64,000 bases of DNA from an uncultured Alphaproteobacteria bacterium (GTDB lineage: Bacteria; Pseudomonadota; Alphaproteobacteria; MPNO01; UBA830): the NCBI GenBank assembly GCA_913046035.1, contig CAJWSW010000005.1:1-64000 (forward strand), given 5' to 3'. The position numbers and the translations under genes were made by a program. Under the pieces are notes generated by a model. It searched no databases. It was not told where the DNA came from and was given only the letters and a program-made list of their open reading frames with translations. Shown piece after piece: positions 38,003 through 61,887 of the stretch (positions are counted from its first letter, which is position 1; the number at the start of each line of letters is the position of its first letter).

Positions 38003-38032
38003 AAAATGGCGGGTTTAGCCCGCCATTTTTTT
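38003..38032 (+). terminator. Rho-independent terminator after the Rieske oxygenase
   Basis: AAAATGGCGGG-TTTAG-CCCGCCATTTT then TTT; 11-bp stem with U-tract 20 nt after the stop codon. Confidence 0.88.
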
Positions 38033-38888: not shown

Positions 38889-39380
38889 ATGAACATCATG
38901 TCAGAAGAAACAGTAAAAATTAGTTTAACCGTCAACGGTGAACCAATCACCAGTACTGTGCCGGTGCGGCGTCACCTTGTTGACTTTTTACGCCTCAATC
39001 TTGACCTTACAGGTTCGCATCTTGCGTGCGAACACGGGGTATGTGGGGCATGCACCGTGAGGGTTGACGGGGCCGCCGTGCGTGGTTGTCTTATGTTGGC
39101 AGTTCAAGCGGATGGTGCCAATGTCGAGACCATAGAGGGGTTATCCGATAGTGGCGAAGTTGCTGACCTGCAAGCTGAATTCGAGGTCCGCAACGCAGCA
39201 CAGTGTGGTTATTGTACTCCGGGTATGATTATTACGTCGGCGGAACTTGTTGCCGCTGGGGGTTTGCCAAACAGAGAGACAATACGTGACCACCTATCCG
39301 GAAATCTCTGCCGTTGTACGGGTTACCAGTCGATAATTGATGCTGTTGAGGAGACAATGAATAAAAGGGCGGGAACATGA
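38889..39380 (+). CDS. Molybdenum hydroxylase 2Fe-2S small subunit (CoxS-like)
   Basis: CEHGVCGACTVRVDG; AQCGYCTPGMIITSAEL; GNLCRCTGYQSI. Confidence 0.94.
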   Translation: MNIMSEETVKISLTVNGEPITSTVPVRRHLVDFLRLNLDLTGSHLACEHGVCGACTVRVDGAAVRGCLMLAVQADGANVETIEGLSDSGEVADLQAEFEVRNAAQCGYCTPGMIITSAELVAAGGLPNRETIRDHLSGNLCRCTGYQSIIDAVEETMNKRAGT

Positions 39381-41764
39381 CACCTCCAGACGGAAACGGT
39401 GGTGAAGGATTAGTTGGTAAGCGAGTTACGCGGCCCAACGTCCGTAGGCTAATTCATGGTCGCGGTCGCTACACCGATGATATTTCTGTGCCTCAGATGC
39501 TGCATATCGCTTTTGTTCGGAGCACTTATGGTCACGCGAAAGTCAAATCGATTGAGACATCTGCGGCCGAAACGGCCCCCGGGGTGGTCCGCGTGATCAC
39601 GGGCGCGCAGGTTGCCGAAATCTGCAAACCTATGCTGGCGATAGCCCAACACAGGCCTGGTCATAAATCGGCACCGCAGTATGCGTTGGCTGTTGACCAC
39701 GTTTGTTATCAAGGAGAACCAGTCGTTGCTGTTGTCGCTTCGAGCCGCGCCGAGGCAGAGGACGCCGCTGACTTGGTGACTGTCGATTACGAGGAGTTAC
39801 CTGTGGTCATGGATATCATGGAGGCGCTTGACCCCGTCTCCACGCCAATACACCCCGAACTCGGTGATAATCAATGTTTTGAACACACTACTAAAACCGG
39901 CGACGCTGCGTCAGCGCTGTCTGCCGCGAAGCTCACAGTTGAGCACAAATTTGAATTCGGGCGCCACACCGCTGTGACCCTTGAAGGACGGGCAATATTA
40001 GCCCATTGGGACCATGTCGAAGAGCGCCTGACTGTGCACCATTCTCACCAGTCACCATATCAGATGCAGGACGTGTTTTCCCGACACCTTGATATCCCCG
40101 AGCACAAGGTCAGGGTAATTACTCCTGATATCGGCGGTGGGTTCGGCCTGAAGATTAATGTTCATGGAGAGGAGCTTGCGGTCGCTGCTATTGCAAAATT
40201 AATCGGCAAGCCGGTTAAGTTTACGGCTGACCGGCTGGAGTCCTTCGTTGCCGACTGTCAGACCCGAGACCATCTTTGCACAGCCGAGATGGGTATAGAT
40301 GAAAACGGTAAAATTACTTCAATGAACTTTGAAAATGCTCTGTCGGTTGGCGCCTACACAGCATACATCCGCTTCGGTTTAGCTGAGGGTATGATGGCGA
40401 TCAGCTGCGCTGCAGCACCATATGCACTGACGGATTATCATGCGCGCACGCGGGTCGCGTATGTTAACAAGGGTATTGTGGGCATGTTTAGGGGAGTTGG
40501 GGTGCCGATTGGTTGCACTGTGACTGAAGTATTGGTGGACCAGGCGGCGGCTAAAGCGGGTATTGACCCCGTTGAGTTCCGGCGCACCAACTATCACAAG
40601 GATGAAGACTATCCCTTGGTAAGCGTTGGCGGTTATTCCGCGAAATCAATGTCACTGCATAAATGTCTGGACGCCTGTGTAAACATTATGGATTACGAGG
40701 CATTGCGTGCCGATCAAGTTGCTCGGCGTGAAAGGAATATTTGGCGCGGAATTGGCGTGGCAACATTCGTCGAGGCGGCTGCATTTGGACCAGTGTATTA
40801 TGGTCCGTCGGGAGCTCGTGTCTCCACGCAGGATGGTTGTACAGTGAAGCTGGAACCTTCCGGTGTAGTGAGGGTAATGACAAGTGTTACTGACCAGGGG
40901 CAGGGAACTTTAACGGGTATAGCACAGATTGTTGGCGACCAACTTGGCGTCGACATCGAAGATATAGATGTTCTCGCTGGCGATAGTGCAACGACCCCCT
41001 ACGGTGGGGGCGCCTGGGCGTCGCGCGGCATGGCGATGGGTGGCGAGGCAGCGCTTCATGCGGGTAAAGCGCTGAAAGAAAATATCCTTGATCTTGCTTC
41101 CTCCATTCTGCAAACGTCTTCAAGCGCTTTGACCCTCGAAGGCGGGGAAATACGGGATGCCGTTTCAGGAGAGGCGCGAATGGATCTCGCCGAACTCGCT
41201 AAGGTGGGTTACTTTCGGCAAGACACTTTGCCTGCCGGCACGCAGCCGGAGTTAATGGTCACGCGCCATCACGTGCCGGATACGCCATATTACATCGCTA
41301 ATGGTGTTCAGGGTGCCCAGGTCGAGGTGGATATTGATACAGGCTTTATTAAGCTCCTTGGTTGGTGGGTTGCTGATGATTGCGGCCGTGTGGTTAATCC
41401 GTTGATGGTTGACGAACAGATCCGCGGTGGGGTTATTCAGGGTATAGGAAATACTTTGTATGAACACAGTCAGTATGACGAGACGGGCCAGCTCTTGAAC
41501 GCGACGTTGGCCGACTATCTACTTCCGATGTCTGGTGAAATGCCTGACATTAAAATTGCCCATGTCGAGACACCATTAACGAACACCGAACTCGGGGCCA
41601 ACGGTATTGGGGAATCTGGAACGATTGGCGCCATTGCGGTTTTATGGTGCGCCGTCAACGATGCTTTAAGACCTTTAGGGGCACAGGTAACTAAGCAACC
41701 ATTTACACCGGAGCATATTTTGGAGGTTATTTCGGCAGCAAAAGAAAAATATGAAACCACTTAG
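39377..41764 (+). CDS. Molybdenum hydroxylase large subunit (CoxL/XDH-like)
   Basis: VRRLIHGRGRYTDDI; PDIGGGFGLKI; MFRGVGVPIG; GANGIGESGTIGA; 4-bp overlap with the CoxS-like gene. Confidence 0.93.
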   Translation: MTPPDGNGGEGLVGKRVTRPNVRRLIHGRGRYTDDISVPQMLHIAFVRSTYGHAKVKSIETSAAETAPGVVRVITGAQVAEICKPMLAIAQHRPGHKSAPQYALAVDHVCYQGEPVVAVVASSRAEAEDAADLVTVDYEELPVVMDIMEALDPVSTPIHPELGDNQCFEHTTKTGDAASALSAAKLTVEHKFEFGRHTAVTLEGRAILAHWDHVEERLTVHHSHQSPYQMQDVFSRHLDIPEHKVRVITPDIGGGFGLKINVHGEELAVAAIAKLIGKPVKFTADRLESFVADCQTRDHLCTAEMGIDENGKITSMNFENALSVGAYTAYIRFGLAEGMMAISCAAAPYALTDYHARTRVAYVNKGIVGMFRGVGVPIGCTVTEVLVDQAAAKAGIDPVEFRRTNYHKDEDYPLVSVGGYSAKSMSLHKCLDACVNIMDYEALRADQVARRERNIWRGIGVATFVEAAAFGPVYYGPSGARVSTQDGCTVKLEPSGVVRVMTSVTDQGQGTLTGIAQIVGDQLGVDIEDIDVLAGDSATTPYGGGAWASRGMAMGGEAALHAGKALKENILDLASSILQTSSSALTLEGGEIRDAVSGEARMDLAELAKVGYFRQDTLPAGTQPELMVTRHHVPDTPYYIANGVQGAQVEVDIDTGFIKLLGWWVADDCGRVVNPLMVDEQIRGGVIQGIGNTLYEHSQYDETGQLLNATLADYLLPMSGEMPDIKIAHVETPLTNTELGANGIGESGTIGAIAVLWCAVNDALRPLGAQVTKQPFTPEHILEVISAAKEKYETT

Positions 41765-44829: not shown

Positions 44830-45200
44830 ATTTTGCCCTTCGTATTAGTTTGGGTCGGTATCGTGCATACTTGCTTAAGGCCATACAAGCCCCATCCTCG
44901 ACGGGCGCGTAAAGTAAATCGAATCATGCTGAAGCATGAGAAAAAGAGTTTATGTTAGGAAAGAGATATGAACCCACCAGCATTTACGGCATGGTTTTAG
45001 GATAATAACTGCGTCCGCAGAGCGAATTATCTCAATCAATTTCGCCACTCGGTCTAGCTTTAAATCAAGGGATAAATTACGCTGCTAACTTAACTTATCG
45101 AGCGTAGGCAAAACGCGATTAGGACTGCAACTATCACTCGGCCGTGACTGGAGAAGGTCCTGAAACAAAACCTTTGCAGCTGGAAATTTCAGGTTTGCAA

Positions 45201-45230
45201 TACTCAGTATTATGCGCATAATACTGAGTA
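45201..45230. promoter_or_regulatory. Perfect 30-bp palindrome, candidate MarR operator
   Basis: TACTCAGTATTATGCGCATAATACTGAGTA is identical to its reverse complement; ends 25 bp before the TTG start at 45256. Confidence 0.7.
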
Positions 45231-45255: not shown

Positions 45256-46446
45256 TTGACAGAAGATTTGATTGTAGTGGCGGGCGCCGGCCTCGGAGGA
45301 CTTGGCGTCGCCTTGGGTTTAGCACAGAACGGAAAACGTGCCGTGGTCCTGGAAAAAGCACCGGCGCTTGGTGAGATTGGTGCCGGTATCCAGCTTGGCC
45401 CCAACGCATTCCACTCTTTTGATTATCTGGGCGTCGGGAAGCGTGCGCGAAAACAGGCAGTATATGTAGAGCGGTTAAGGTTCATGGACGCAATGTCAGC
45501 CGAAGAGGTCAATAACGTGCCTCTGGGTGAAGGGTTTCGTGAGCGATTTGGTAATCCATATGCCGTGGTTCATCGTGCCGACTTGCACAAAGAACTTGTC
45601 AACGCCTGTGAAGAACATGATCTGGTAGAGTTGCGCGTCAATAGCGAAGTTATAGGATACGACCAAGATGGAACTACTGTAACCGCGCATCTGGCCAGCG
45701 GTGAACGTGTTAATGGTTCATTGCTAATTGGAGCAGACGGTCTTCATTCGTCTGTTCGGGGTAAAGTGATAGGCGACGGTGCGCCACGTACATCGGGCCA
45801 TTCGACTTACCGAGCTGTCATCCCGGTTGATACAATGCCGGAGGATTTGCGCTGGAATGCGGCAACACTGTGGATGGGTCCAAAGTGCCACCTCGTGCAC
45901 TATCCATTGTCGGGATGGAAAGTGTTTAACCTTGTTGTCACTAAGGATAATCACGCGCAGGATGTGGTCGCAGGTAAACCGCTTACCAAAGCCGACGTAC
46001 ACGAGCATTTCGATCATATTCACGAAACACCACGCCGACTAATCGATCTAAGTGAAGACTGGCGCGTTTGGGTGCTTTGTGATCGCGAACCGGTTGATAA
46101 CTGGGTCGATGGGCGGGTGGTACTTTTAGGGGATGCTGCACATCCAACGCTGCAATACTATGCGCAAGGTGCATGTATGGCGTTGGAAGACGGGGTCTGT
46201 TTATCGCAGCTGGTAGCCGCTAGCCCGGATAATCTTGAGGGGGCACTGCAACGTTACCAAGAGCGCCGACTGGTGCGAACCGCCCGCATACAGATCGGTT
46301 CACGTCAACTGGGCGACAATTGGTTTCACGTGGACGGGGTTCATCGGCTACTTCGCAATGAAATAATGGGTAATATGACGGCTGAGGATTATTACAACCA
46401 GCTTGACTGGTTGTATGGACACAACGAGGCTAAATTGGCCGCGTGA
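45256..46446 (+). CDS. FAD-dependent aromatic monooxygenase (3-hydroxybenzoate 6-hydroxylase / salicylate hydroxylase-like)
   Basis: VVAGAGLGGLGVALGLAQNGKRAVVLEKAPALGEIGAGIQLGPNA; LLIGADGLHSSVR; GRVVLLGDAAHPTLQYYAQGACMALEDG. TTG start. Confidence 0.92.
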   Translation: MTEDLIVVAGAGLGGLGVALGLAQNGKRAVVLEKAPALGEIGAGIQLGPNAFHSFDYLGVGKRARKQAVYVERLRFMDAMSAEEVNNVPLGEGFRERFGNPYAVVHRADLHKELVNACEEHDLVELRVNSEVIGYDQDGTTVTAHLASGERVNGSLLIGADGLHSSVRGKVIGDGAPRTSGHSTYRAVIPVDTMPEDLRWNAATLWMGPKCHLVHYPLSGWKVFNLVVTKDNHAQDVVAGKPLTKADVHEHFDHIHETPRRLIDLSEDWRVWVLCDREPVDNWVDGRVVLLGDAAHPTLQYYAQGACMALEDGVCLSQLVAASPDNLEGALQRYQERRLVRTARIQIGSRQLGDNWFHVDGVHRLLRNEIMGNMTAEDYYNQLDWLYGHNEAKLAA

Positions 46447-46925
46447 TGGCGAGTAATGCGCTGAAATCCAGTATTCTCGAAGACTTACGTCAGGCACCCG
46501 GGCATCTTTTGCGCCGGTGCCAGCAGATCGCTGTCTCGGTATTTCTCGACGAATGCCAAACTTGGGATCTCACCCCAGTGCAGTTTGCTGTATTGGTAGA
46601 GCTCAATCGTCATGGTCCTCATGATCAGGTGGGTCTTGGTGGTGCGCTTGCGATGGATCGGACAACGATAGGCGTGGTGGTCAAAAAGCTAGAAGAGCGG
46701 GGGCTCGTCGAAAGGTCGATTTCTGAACAGGACCGTCGATCAAAGCCGGTTTCTATTACTTCTGCGGGTTCAGCCCTCATTCGCAACGTACTACCCGCCG
46801 CTGAGATGGCGCAGGACCGTATGCTGGCGCCGTTGAATGATGCGGAGCGAAGCCAATTTATGCGTCTTTTAGGTAAAGTCGCTGACGGTAATAATAGCGA
46901 GAGCCGTGCGCCACTGCGTCGTTAG
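46443..46925 (+). CDS. MarR-family transcriptional regulator
   Basis: LTPVQFAVLVELNRHGPHDQVGLGGALAMDRTTIGVVVKKLEERGLVERSISEQDRRSKPVSITSAG; 4-bp overlap with the monooxygenase. Confidence 0.94.
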   Translation: MMASNALKSSILEDLRQAPGHLLRRCQQIAVSVFLDECQTWDLTPVQFAVLVELNRHGPHDQVGLGGALAMDRTTIGVVVKKLEERGLVERSISEQDRRSKPVSITSAGSALIRNVLPAAEMAQDRMLAPLNDAERSQFMRLLGKVADGNNSESRAPLRR

Positions 46926-47533
46926 CGAAAGTCTCGCCGCAGTGATGGATTGGCCATAGTCGTATCCTGACCGGGAGGAGCATTTTCAACCGCACTTTCC
47001 AGTGTCATCTCTTCTTGCCATTCTCCCGCCGGTCGTGCCGTTCCATCCGCTGAGATTTGATCAATCCCCCAGTAGATCTCTAGCATATGTCGGTCTGGAT
47101 CGAAGAACTCCACTGCAACCTGACAACCAGCGCGTCGACGGCCAAGATAGGAAATTTCCACATTGTGCGCCTCTAAATGGTCACGCGCGCGAAAAATCTC
47201 GTCGATTGTCGAAACCTCGAATGCCATGTGGTCCAATTCTTTGCTTTTGCTGGGACCTTTAGCGCCGCCAATGAGTGCAACGCCGTGATGATCGGCGGCA
47301 CATCTCATAAACACCATTCGGCCGGGAACCATTGTCGCGGGGTACACGTCAGAAACTATGAAACCGAGGACCTCAGTATAAAACTTTACCGATTTCTCTA
47401 TGTTTTGAACCTTCAGTACGACATGACCGATCTTATTGATGCTAAATGGAAGGCCTTTGGGTGTCAGCGTGTTCCGCAGTGCCACCACGTCCGGTTGGTT
47501 AAGACCTTCTGTGTCTACGATCCCGCGCGCCAT
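46922..47533 (-). CDS. VOC/glyoxalase-family (extradiol dioxygenase-like) protein
   Basis: NKIGHVVLKVQNIEKSVKFYTEVLGFIVSD; LDHMAFEV; EFFDPDRHMLEIYW. Confidence 0.9.
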   Translation of the reverse strand: MARGIVDTEGLNQPDVVALRNTLTPKGLPFSINKIGHVVLKVQNIEKSVKFYTEVLGFIVSDVYPATMVPGRMVFMRCAADHHGVALIGGAKGPSKSKELDHMAFEVSTIDEIFRARDHLEAHNVEISYLGRRRAGCQVAVEFFDPDRHMLEIYWGIDQISADGTARPAGEWQEEMTLESAVENAPPGQDTTMANPSLRRDFR

Positions 47534-47876: not shown

Positions 47877-50258
47877 TCAGATCTTGCCAAGCGCTCCAAG
47901 AACGATTTCTGGTGTGATTGGCTGTTCGGTAACTCTGCCATCTGTCAGAGGTTTTATTGCATTATTTACGGCGTTCATTACCACGCCCGGTGCTGCGCCA
48001 GTGCCCGACTCGCCGGCCCCTTTAGCCCCTAATTCAGACTCACTCGTCGGCGTTTGAATGTGGTCGATTTCTATATCAGGCATTTCAGACATCATTGGTG
48101 TTACATAATCCGCCATCGTGCCGTTCTGTAGTTGACCGTAGTCGTCGTAAATGCAGTGCTCGTATAGTGCCCCGCCCAAACCCTGCACGCAGCCTCCGCG
48201 GATCTGTTCGTCGGCAAGCTGTTGATTAATAATGCGGCCACAATCTTCCACAACCCAGTGTTTTAAGTGCCTAATCCAACCGGTATCCACATCCACCTCA
48301 ACGTATGCCCCGTGGATGCCATTGGTATAGATATAAGGCGAATCCTGCAGTCGATAGCGCCGTGTGTGCGATAGCACGGGTTGGTAATTATTCGGCAGCT
48401 CACCTAGTTGGAAATGACCAATGCGTCCGATCTCAGAGAGCGGAATACGTGGTTCATTTGATCCGTCATTGACGACGTGCCCATCTACGATATCTAGTTC
48501 ATTAGGGTCGGCCTGAAGTAATATCCCGGCCATGTGAAGGATCTCGCGACGCAAGTCGAGTGCAGCCTGGTAGGTAGCTTCACCGCCGATAGCTGTTGCA
48601 CGGGATGCATAAGTTCCACCGCCATAAGGGGTGGCGTCCGTGTCACCTGAAATCGCGCGAACGTGATCCATCGAACATCCGATAGCGGCCGCTGCAATTT
48701 GCTCCATAACGGTATCGACGCCCTGACCTTGATCCGTGACGCCAAGAGCGACGATAACGCCGCCCGAAGGCTCTAATTTAACTGTGGTGGCGTCCTGTGC
48801 TGCAATGCGAGCGCCGCCGGCACCATAATAGCCAACTGGGCTAGGCGCCGTTCCCTTGATAAAGCCGGCGACGCCTATCCCACGGTATATGCCTTTTTTT
48901 CGCAATTCTGTCTGTTCGGAAAGCAAATCTTCGTATGCCATAAGCCCGTACAGTTTTTCTAGGCAGGCTTGATGCGAGAGATCCTTCATCGGTATACCTG
49001 ATCCGATCGGCCGCGGGTAGGAGTCGTCTTCCATTATGTTTTTTCGCCGGATCTCGAAAGGATCGAGGCCTGTGACATCGGCGGCCCAGTCCATCATGAA
49101 TTCACCCACCGAGATGCCGATTGGATGTCCAACCGCGCGATATTGTGAGGTGGGCACTGCGTTCAGGTAAACCACCTGTGCGCGGGCTCTATAATTCGGG
49201 TGTTTGTAGGGACCGAAGCTAATGTTGAGAATTTGATTGGCTTCAAAAACGGAGGTGCGGGGATACTGAGAATAGGCGCCTACGCCGGAGAGGTCATCGA
49301 TTTCGGCGGCAATCATGGTACCGTCGTTCATGATACCAATTTTAGCCTTCACTCTGTTCTCGCGGGCGTGGATATCAGACAAAAATGACTCCAGCCGGTC
49401 AGCTACGAACTTCACCGGTCGACCAAGTTGTATAGCTGCCGCTGTAGCCGCAATCTCGTCGCCGAAGGTATGAATTTTTAGCCCAAATGAGCCGCCTACA
49501 TCAGGTGCGACGATGCGCACATTGTGTTCTGGCACGCCCAATGTTTGAGCAAACACCGTCTCTATCATGTGCGGGCACTGGCTAGATGTGTGTATGGTCA
49601 GTTGCTCGGTGCCTTTATCGTACTCGCATAGCACGATGCGAGGCTCAAGGCTGACAGCCGTATGGCGTCCAAAATAGAATGTCTCTTCAAGTACGTGGTC
49701 AGCTTCTTCAAAAGCTTTATCTACATCGCCGGAGCCGAGGGTGTGTTCCCACGCTTTATTATCGCCCAGGTTGGCATGAATTACAGGTGATCCAGGATCG
49801 AGGGCTGTTTCTTTGTTGATGACGACCGGAAGTTCTTCATATTCGACAACGACCAACTCCCCGGCATCCTCTGCCTGTGCACGGGTCTCAGCGATGACCA
49901 TAACAACCGGCTCACCGTGCCAGCAAACCCGGTCGACTGCCATCGGATGTTGTGGCTCGGCCTTCATGTTTTCGAAAACCTTCAGTGTGCCAACCCAGGG
50001 GCCTGTGCACATCTCGGCGAGCTCACTTCCCGTCATTACCAGTTTAACGCCCGAGGCATCTTTTGCAGCCTCTACATCGATGTTCAGTATTTTGGCGTGT
50101 GCATAAGGGCTGCGGACGAAGGCCGCATGCAGTGTCCTGGGCGGCGTGATATCATCTGTGTAGCGTCCTCGACCAGCCACCGCGCGTTTTGCACGCGACC
50201 GTGGGAGGGTGCGTCCTATATAAGAATTCGGCCGGTCATACGGATGAATAAAGCCCAT
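47877..50258 (-). CDS. Molybdenum hydroxylase large subunit (CoxL/XDH-like)
   Basis: KRAVAGRGRYTDDI; PDVGGSFGLKI; SQYRAVGHPIG; GAKGAGESGTGAAPG. Confidence 0.94.
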   Translation of the reverse strand: MGFIHPYDRPNSYIGRTLPRSRAKRAVAGRGRYTDDITPPRTLHAAFVRSPYAHAKILNIDVEAAKDASGVKLVMTGSELAEMCTGPWVGTLKVFENMKAEPQHPMAVDRVCWHGEPVVMVIAETRAQAEDAGELVVVEYEELPVVINKETALDPGSPVIHANLGDNKAWEHTLGSGDVDKAFEEADHVLEETFYFGRHTAVSLEPRIVLCEYDKGTEQLTIHTSSQCPHMIETVFAQTLGVPEHNVRIVAPDVGGSFGLKIHTFGDEIAATAAAIQLGRPVKFVADRLESFLSDIHARENRVKAKIGIMNDGTMIAAEIDDLSGVGAYSQYPRTSVFEANQILNISFGPYKHPNYRARAQVVYLNAVPTSQYRAVGHPIGISVGEFMMDWAADVTGLDPFEIRRKNIMEDDSYPRPIGSGIPMKDLSHQACLEKLYGLMAYEDLLSEQTELRKKGIYRGIGVAGFIKGTAPSPVGYYGAGGARIAAQDATTVKLEPSGGVIVALGVTDQGQGVDTVMEQIAAAAIGCSMDHVRAISGDTDATPYGGGTYASRATAIGGEATYQAALDLRREILHMAGILLQADPNELDIVDGHVVNDGSNEPRIPLSEIGRIGHFQLGELPNNYQPVLSHTRRYRLQDSPYIYTNGIHGAYVEVDVDTGWIRHLKHWVVEDCGRIINQQLADEQIRGGCVQGLGGALYEHCIYDDYGQLQNGTMADYVTPMMSEMPDIEIDHIQTPTSESELGAKGAGESGTGAAPGVVMNAVNNAIKPLTDGRVTEQPITPEIVLGALGKI

Positions 50259-50263
50259 CGAAT

Positions 50264-50746
50264 TCAGCCTCCCAGTCGTTCGTTATTAATCGACTCAATG
50301 GCATCGACTATAGCGTGGTAGCCTGTGCACCTGCAGTAGTTTCCTGACATGTACTCGCGTATATCGTCGCGGCTCATTTCAGTCTTTTGCGCCAATAATT
50401 CGGCAGCCGTCATAAGCATTCCGGGTGTGCAGTAGCCGCATTGCAATGCATTCCGTTCGACGAATTTTTCCTGAAGATCCGAGATCTCGCCCGTATCTGT
50501 TATCCCTTCAATGGTAAGGACCTCGCATCCATCGGCCTGGGCTGCCAACAGTAAGCAGCCGCGAACAACATCACCATCAACCCGCACTGAGCATGCGCCA
50601 CACACTCCGTGTTCGCAGCCCAGATGTGATCCTGTAAAACCCAGCTCTGTGCGGATAAAATCCACAAGGTGTGTGCGAACTGGGATGGTCTTCGAGACTG
50701 CCTCGCCGTTAACTGTCATATTAACGGTGATCATTTCTTCGCTCAT
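50264..50746 (-). CDS. Molybdenum hydroxylase 2Fe-2S small subunit (CoxS-like)
   Basis: CEHGVCGACSVRVDG; LQCGYCTPGMLMTAAEL; GNYCRCTGYHAI. Confidence 0.95.
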   Translation of the reverse strand: MSEEMITVNMTVNGEAVSKTIPVRTHLVDFIRTELGFTGSHLGCEHGVCGACSVRVDGDVVRGCLLLAAQADGCEVLTIEGITDTGEISDLQEKFVERNALQCGYCTPGMLMTAAELLAQKTEMSRDDIREYMSGNYCRCTGYHAIVDAIESINNERLGG

Positions 50747-51615
50747 AATGTGCCTCCCGCTCTCGAAACCGCGGTATCCATCGCGCGCCCAGTCAAGACT
50801 TTCTGCAAGTGTAGTTTCATGGCGGCTGATCCGTTCAGGTTAGCCATTGGGTCGAGATCATTTTCAAGCGCTGCAGAAACTGCATCCTTTGTTTCTTCAG
50901 ACCAGGCGTGCCCATTAAGAGCTGCGATAGCATGTTCGCCGATCACCGGCCGATCTTCGCTCGCGAAATAAACGAGACGCATGTCGTCGATGGTTTCACC
51001 GGTAACCTTGCCATACGCACATATGCCAGCGATCGCGTAATCCCCATGTCGTCGAGAAAGTTCCATAAACACGGATACATTGTCTTTCTTCTGGGACGGA
51101 AAACGGATTTCAACCAGTAATTCATTTTCTGCCCGCGCTGTTTCATAGAGGCCATGAAAAAATTGCTCAGCCGGTATCTCGCGCTTACCACCGCTATTTT
51201 GGACTACTAAAGTTGCGCCAAGTGCAAGAGCACAAGCAGGCATTTCAGCGGCCGGATCGGAAAGAGCTATACTCCCGCCAATCGTGCCTCGATTACGGAT
51301 AGCGACGTGGGCTACGTAGGGCATTGCTTCGGTAACCAACGGCAGATGGGCCGAAACAATATCCGAATTTAGAACTTCGACATGACGTGTTAAAGCTCCA
51401 ATAACGACTGTGTCACCATCCAGTGAAATTCCCTTGAGCTCATTTAACCGATTAATATCAATAAGAATCTCAGGCTGCGAAAGACGCATATTTAGCGTGG
51501 GCATGAGGCTCTGCCCGCCTGCAAGAATGCGAGCATCGTCTCCGTGTTTATCAAGAAGTTCCAGCGCATGTTCGACGCTGTCTGCACGTACGTAAGAAAA
51601 TTTCGGCGCCTTCAA
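50743..51615 (-). CDS. Molybdenum hydroxylase FAD-binding medium subunit (CoxM-like)
   Basis: ARILAGGQSLMPTLNMRLSQPEILIDINRL; IRNRGTIGGSIALSDPAAEMPA. Confidence 0.94.
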   Translation of the reverse strand: MKAPKFSYVRADSVEHALELLDKHGDDARILAGGQSLMPTLNMRLSQPEILIDINRLNELKGISLDGDTVVIGALTRHVEVLNSDIVSAHLPLVTEAMPYVAHVAIRNRGTIGGSIALSDPAAEMPACALALGATLVVQNSGGKREIPAEQFFHGLYETARAENELLVEIRFPSQKKDNVSVFMELSRRHGDYAIAGICAYGKVTGETIDDMRLVYFASEDRPVIGEHAIAALNGHAWSEETKDAVSAALENDLDPMANLNGSAAMKLHLQKVLTGRAMDTAVSRAGGTL

Positions 51616-61824: not shown

Positions 61825-61844
61825 AAGCGTAACGGGTAAATAAT

Positions 61845-61872
61845 GCCCTCCAGCCTGTTTAGGCTGGAGGGC
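61845..61872 (-). promoter_or_regulatory. Intercistronic RNA hairpin between dctP and dctQM
   Basis: GCCCTCCAGCC-TGTTTA(or complement)-GGCTGGAGGGC, 11-bp perfect stem, between the dctP stop (61888) and dctQ start (61824). Confidence 0.75.
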
Positions 61873-61887
61873 AGAAATTAAAGTAGC

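Follow-up and report, generated by a model that had tools for sequence, protein, structure and literature searches.

A conserved 30-bp palindrome as the predicted operator of a 3-hydroxybenzoate 6-monooxygenase–marR unit in an uncultured alphaproteobacterium

Results

A perfect palindrome precedes a monooxygenase–marR pair

In a 64,000-nucleotide stretch of DNA from an uncultured Alphaproteobacteria bacterium (the window), a perfect 30-bp palindrome lies directly upstream of a gene pair encoding a 3-hydroxybenzoate 6-monooxygenase (3HB6H) and a MarR-family regulator, and is very probably the operator of this adjacent unit's own MarR. The prediction is made from sequence: the palindrome is conserved together with the pair, it is found almost exclusively before such pairs in a class-wide genome scan, and it overlaps a promoter-like sequence; the initial annotation, which had proposed a probable MarR operator, is supported by each of these.

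The palindrome, TACTCAGTATTATGCGCATAATACTGAGTA, occupies positions 45201–45230 and consists of two arms of 15 nt that are 100% complementary with no spacer, as originally described; no strand is assigned to it or to its parts. A conserved core, TCAGTATTATG-NN-CATAATACTGA, lies inside it at 45204–45227, and 25 bp separate it from the TTG start of the monooxygenase gene at 45256, the distance first given. It is the top ungapped palindrome of the window, with a score of 15 versus 10 for the runner-up. From base composition, a perfect palindrome with 15-bp arms is expected about 6e-5 times in 64 kb and about 5e-7 times in the 423-bp intergenic stretch, in keeping with the earlier statement that chance is a very improbable origin. 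The genome-wide search that had been suggested returned one copy in the 2.78-Mb genome, even when up to three mismatches were allowed. With the central 16-mer and three mismatches, only noise was found in this genome beyond the site and the reversed control matched more; the viral contigs searched gave no match. The next-strongest inverted repeats of the window, at 38003–38029 (AAAATGGCGGGTTTAGCCCGCCATTTT) and 61844–61873 (TGCCCTCCAGCCTGTTTAGGCTGGAGGGCA), are terminator-like in appearance.

The monooxygenase gene (45256–46446, + strand) encodes an FAD enzyme with the Pfam domain FAD_binding_3, and its product scores 532 bits against the NCBIfam equivalog model NF006021 (cut-off 459), within reach of the 534–546 bits of its orthologues; the nearest PDB chain is 4bjy. 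Its TTG start lines up with the ATG of the orthologues. Conversion of 3-hydroxybenzoate to gentisate is the predicted reaction, which is consistent with a gentisate 1,2-dioxygenase encoded on another contig of the same genome and scoring above its cut-off, so that the product has an onward route. The unit is flanked by two distinct molybdenum-hydroxylase operons (xanthine dehydrogenase/CO dehydrogenase type) at 38889–41764 and 47877–51615, and no NCBIfam equivalog cut-off was reached by these hydroxylases. They had prompted the idea of a nicotinate (NicC/NicR) cluster, which was dropped because the enzyme scores as 3HB6H.

The regulator gene (46443–46925, + strand) has a PF01047 (MarR winged-helix) score of 58.4 bits against a Pfam cut-off of 24.6. 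With the GTG at 46443 as start it overlaps the monooxygenase gene, which ends at 46446, by the 4 bp originally noted; the in-frame ATG at 46446 (TGATG, 1-bp overlap) is an equally possible start. MarR orthologues within the family share 72–79% identity, and the nearest PDB structure is BpsR (6pcp, 6pco), with PcaV also among the best. On the opposite strand, a VOC/glyoxalase-family gene (46922–47533) overlaps the end of marR with its own end by 4 bp; its orthologue (80%) adjoins the pair in G001 and is absent from that position in G003 and G005.

The palindrome is conserved before orthologous pairs

Absence of the palindrome before orthologous operons had been named as evidence that would count against an operator. 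Palindromes of 26–38 bp with the same position and the same core are, however, present at six further orthologous monooxygenase–marR pairs (genomes G001, G003, G005, G399, G408 and G209), which belong to three families of the class, one of them that of the window. The upstream DNA of G001, G003 and G005 aligns poorly except for the palindrome (TTAGTCAGCATTATGCGCATAGTGCTGACTAA, ATCAGTATTGTGCGCATAATACTGAT and TAATCAGTATTATGCGCATAATACTGTTTA respectively), which forms an island of identity. The sites from other families (G399, CAGTTAATCAGTATTATGATCATAATGCTGATTAACTG; G408, AATCAGTATTATGATCATAATACTGATT; G209, ATTAATCAGTATTATGATCATAATACTGATTAAT, perfect over 34 bp) lie directly 5' of a 3HB6H gene that is followed by marR at 54–59% identity; the G209 pair also has a 4-bp overlap. 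When the seven sites were aligned on their dyad, symmetry was kept in 6–7 of 7 as far as position 15 but in 1–3 of 7 further out, and positions 1 and 13 carried paired, two-sided changes, which argues for selection for symmetry and not mere inheritance. marR is common to these loci and the other neighbouring genes vary between families, indicating that the common unit is operator, monooxygenase and marR. This pairing is a minority arrangement, as both the palindrome and an adjacent marR are missing from most 3HB6H orthologues of the class.

A scan of 385 genomes of the class with the query TCAGTATTATGNNCATAATACTGA, allowing three mismatches, matched four genomes, in three of which (the window's, G399 and G209) the site was directly before a monooxygenase–marR pair; the fourth, G315, has a lone asymmetric site with three mismatches, and the reversed control matched one genome. 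Scanning 399 genomes of the phylum added two asymmetric three-mismatch sites, and the ORFs listed there include no such pair. At the gentisate-dioxygenase loci of eight genomes the motif was not found, and thus no wider regulon was detected there. The motif was also absent with Halomonas-type MarRs (approximately 47%), which mostly have no such monooxygenase neighbour.

Overlap with a promoter-like sequence and the RNA alternative

A sigma70-like promoter match combines a −35-like hexamer, TTGCAA (45195–45200, + strand), and a −10-like hexamer, CATAAT (45217–45222, + strand), across a 16-nt spacer, with the −10 inside the palindrome. The match is weak when taken alone, two overlapping matches being present in the intergenic stretch versus 1.0 expected in shuffles; the TTG of the −35 is retained in G001, G003 and G005, as is CATAAT or CATAGT at −10. 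The palindrome therefore probably spans the spacer, the −10 and the probable start site, as expected for an autoregulated MarR repressor: autoregulation is common among MarR proteins, which bind palindromes in promoters (PMC5487221), and here dyad-symmetric DNA lies on the predicted promoter of the unit that holds marR.

Could the palindrome work instead as RNA, as a 5'-leader hairpin governing translation or terminating transcription? A hairpin is predicted (13-pair stem, 4-nt loop, −19 kcal/mol, z −1.9), and a simple scanner flags the site as terminator-like with the tail AATTGAGTTT, which qualifies the statement in the initial annotation that no U-tract follows; its conclusion that the element is not a terminator stood. 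An intrinsic terminator has a G+C-rich stem and a T-run and lies 3' of a gene, whereas this stem is A+T-rich (3 of 13 pairs G-C), its T-run is poor, and it lies just 5' of a gene at the position of a promoter. Further, with the retained −10 inside the stem the transcript would start near the right end, without the stem; centre and arms conserve DNA identity beyond mere pairing; and in G255 the palindrome sits between divergent genes. We consider an RNA function extremely improbable. Nearly as improbable is an operator for another regulator of the genome, with the adjacent MarR not involved. The genome does hold several further MarR genes (seven matches), but there is a single site per genome, which favours a local regulator; no regulator other than marR was found next to the site in the families compared; and a CAGTATACTG theme is common to the sequences 5' of related MarR genes.

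One MarR dimer or two

MarR sites in the literature measure 16–20 bp (PMC12016517) and the footprints of SCO3205 22–24 bp (PMC3737563). Against this range of 16–24 bp, which is typical and not strict, the palindrome measures 30 bp and is symmetric to ±15 in relatives, so that a plain one-dimer site leaves part of it unexplained. By comparison with relatives, it can be divided into a left module, CAGTATTATG (45205–45214), which is a drifted CAGTATACTG and the proposed site of one dimer, and a right module, CATAATACTG (45217–45226), the same module on the opposite strand. In the window clade the module centres are separated by 12 bp. G105, G290, Azospirillum and Paracoccus have a pair of CAGTATACTG copies at a distance of 15 bp, with 1–3 mismatches in 20, and G255 has window-type arms at the 15-bp spacing (ATCAGTATTATGA-CGA-TCATAATACTGAT). 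Loci L082 (G255) and L099 (Azospirillum oryzae) show window-like half-sites whose middle measures 5 bp and not 2 bp, the arms being 3 bp further apart. None of 100 shuffles matched the 15-bp cases, with p-values that are not independent because the module was picked after these cases had been seen. With at most one mismatch, CAGTATACTG precedes 4 of the 35 further MarR genes taken from relatives, versus 0.05 expected (one of the four, in G009, seen beforehand). None of 44 coding windows contained it, and 2 of 58 flank windows at monooxygenase loci did.

The simplest reading, towards which we lean slightly, is that two MarR dimers would sit side by side on the palindrome with the 10-bp module as base unit, and this would account for the length beyond that of usual MarR sites. 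The fuller proposal, a two-dimer operator whose CAGTATACTG-type modules are separated by 15 bp in some relatives but by 12 bp in the window clade, there fused into one long perfect palindrome, falls a little short of an even chance. A real but lesser possibility is a MarR operator with one dimer at the central dyad that reaches ±15 through its wings or terminal tails, the arms not being separate sites. In favour of one dimer, the seven window-clade sites share a single centre of symmetry, the symmetry ends abruptly at 15, and a C-terminal tail supplies extra contacts in SCO3205 (PMC3737563); the dyad within a single window-clade arm is weak (4–5 of 8 pairs) and does not by itself prove two sites, and the two-site argument consequently rests on the relatives. 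There, the arms of G255 and Azospirillum conserve their sequence although their spacing is 15 and not 12, and the module can itself be palindromic (CAGTATACTG in G105), a poor fit to one rigid dimer. The earlier suggestion of possibly two overlapping sites thus gains some support from the distant relatives and is not proven by the window-clade arms.

Discussion

Taken as a whole, the best explanation, which we hold to be highly likely, is a predicted MarR operator with repression of its own unit and release by an aromatic acid. We infer binding, repression, the ligand and the two dimers as follows. Without inducer, MarR, most likely as two homodimers with one per arm, would cover the spacer, the −10 and the start site and block RNA polymerase, holding the 3-hydroxybenzoate 6-monooxygenase and marR itself low. 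Binding of an aromatic acid (probably 3-hydroxybenzoate or the gentisate made from it) would release MarR from the DNA and allow expression of the unit; the gentisate formed would then be ring-opened by the gentisate 1,2-dioxygenase whose gene lies on another contig.

BpsR and NicR are MarR regulators of nicotinate breakdown. BpsR, as the nearest solved structure, resembles the window's regulator and also accompanies an aromatic flavin monooxygenase pathway; the window enzyme, in contrast, scores as 3HB6H, and in the PDB search 6-hydroxynicotinate 3-monooxygenase came out well below. MobR of Comamonas testosteroni is reportedly a MarR that responds to 3-hydroxybenzoate and goes with a 4-hydroxylase. 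As far as it is described in PMC4737184, MobR is likewise a MarR linked to 3-hydroxybenzoate hydroxylation, whereas the window has a 6-hydroxylase and overlapping genes on the same strand. The CouR box of Rhodococcus jostii (PMC4737184), the BhbR2 site TTGATT-N5-AATCAA of Pigmentiphaga kullae (PMC12016517) and the SCO3205 sites (PMC3737563) are comparable in that an inverted repeat lies on or beside the promoter of a catabolic unit, with marR in or beside the unit. Unlike these sites of 16–24 bp, the window operator is 30 bp long and gapless, extends from the spacer to the start site, has another sequence and apparently comprises two modules. Counting against a repressor, some MarR proteins encoded beside such enzymes act as activators, BhbR2 being one (PMC12016517). 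In Burkholderia xenovorans LB400, a gentisate cluster holds a MarR gene, mhbR, and a predicted palindrome, ATTGTTTCACAAACTAAT, which differs from the window's in sequence, in its target, the transporter mhbT, and in its divergent genes (PMC3572157).

Of the plasmid matches to the MarR, the best (56%) is on plasmid p1 of Agrobacterium leguminum AT13, in an operon with the order 3HB6H – fumarylacetoacetate hydrolase – maiA – marR – cupin protein – maleylpyruvate isomerase, the cupin protein of which may be gentisate dioxygenase-like. A weaker copy of the motif with four mismatches, TCAGCAATATGAGCATAGCACTGA (L097, 292–315), ends 25 bp 5' of the 3HB6H gene there. The gene order in Azospirillum oryzae is marR – cupin – hydrolase – 3HB6H, and in Paracoccus ferrooxidans marR (46% to the window's MarR) diverges from a 3-hydroxybenzoate 4-monooxygenase. 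These three loci link this group of MarR proteins with 3-hydroxybenzoate and gentisate.

No description of this operator motif was found in the literature, and a search for CAGTATTATG gave, among the matches listed, titles unrelated to bacterial regulation. The predicted autoregulatory MarR operator is well supported by the comparisons above; its sequence motif is new, and the kind of element is known and ordinary. The sharply defined motif TCAGTATTATG-NN-CATAATACTGA may serve as an operator signature for the 3-hydroxybenzoate 6-hydroxylase-linked MarR group, useful for regulon annotation, and could serve the building of 3-hydroxybenzoate or gentisate sensors. The difference between 12- and 15-bp spacing in these relatives provides a small natural experiment on MarR-dimer pairing on DNA and, if the two-dimer proposal is true, a natural series that could show such pairing and operator evolution directly. 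About 80 bp 5' of more distant MarR genes in relatives lie near-perfect 20-bp palindromes of the ATCGTTCGTATACAAACGAT type (L115, L117 and L121), which may represent a further operator class with GTATAC at its centre.
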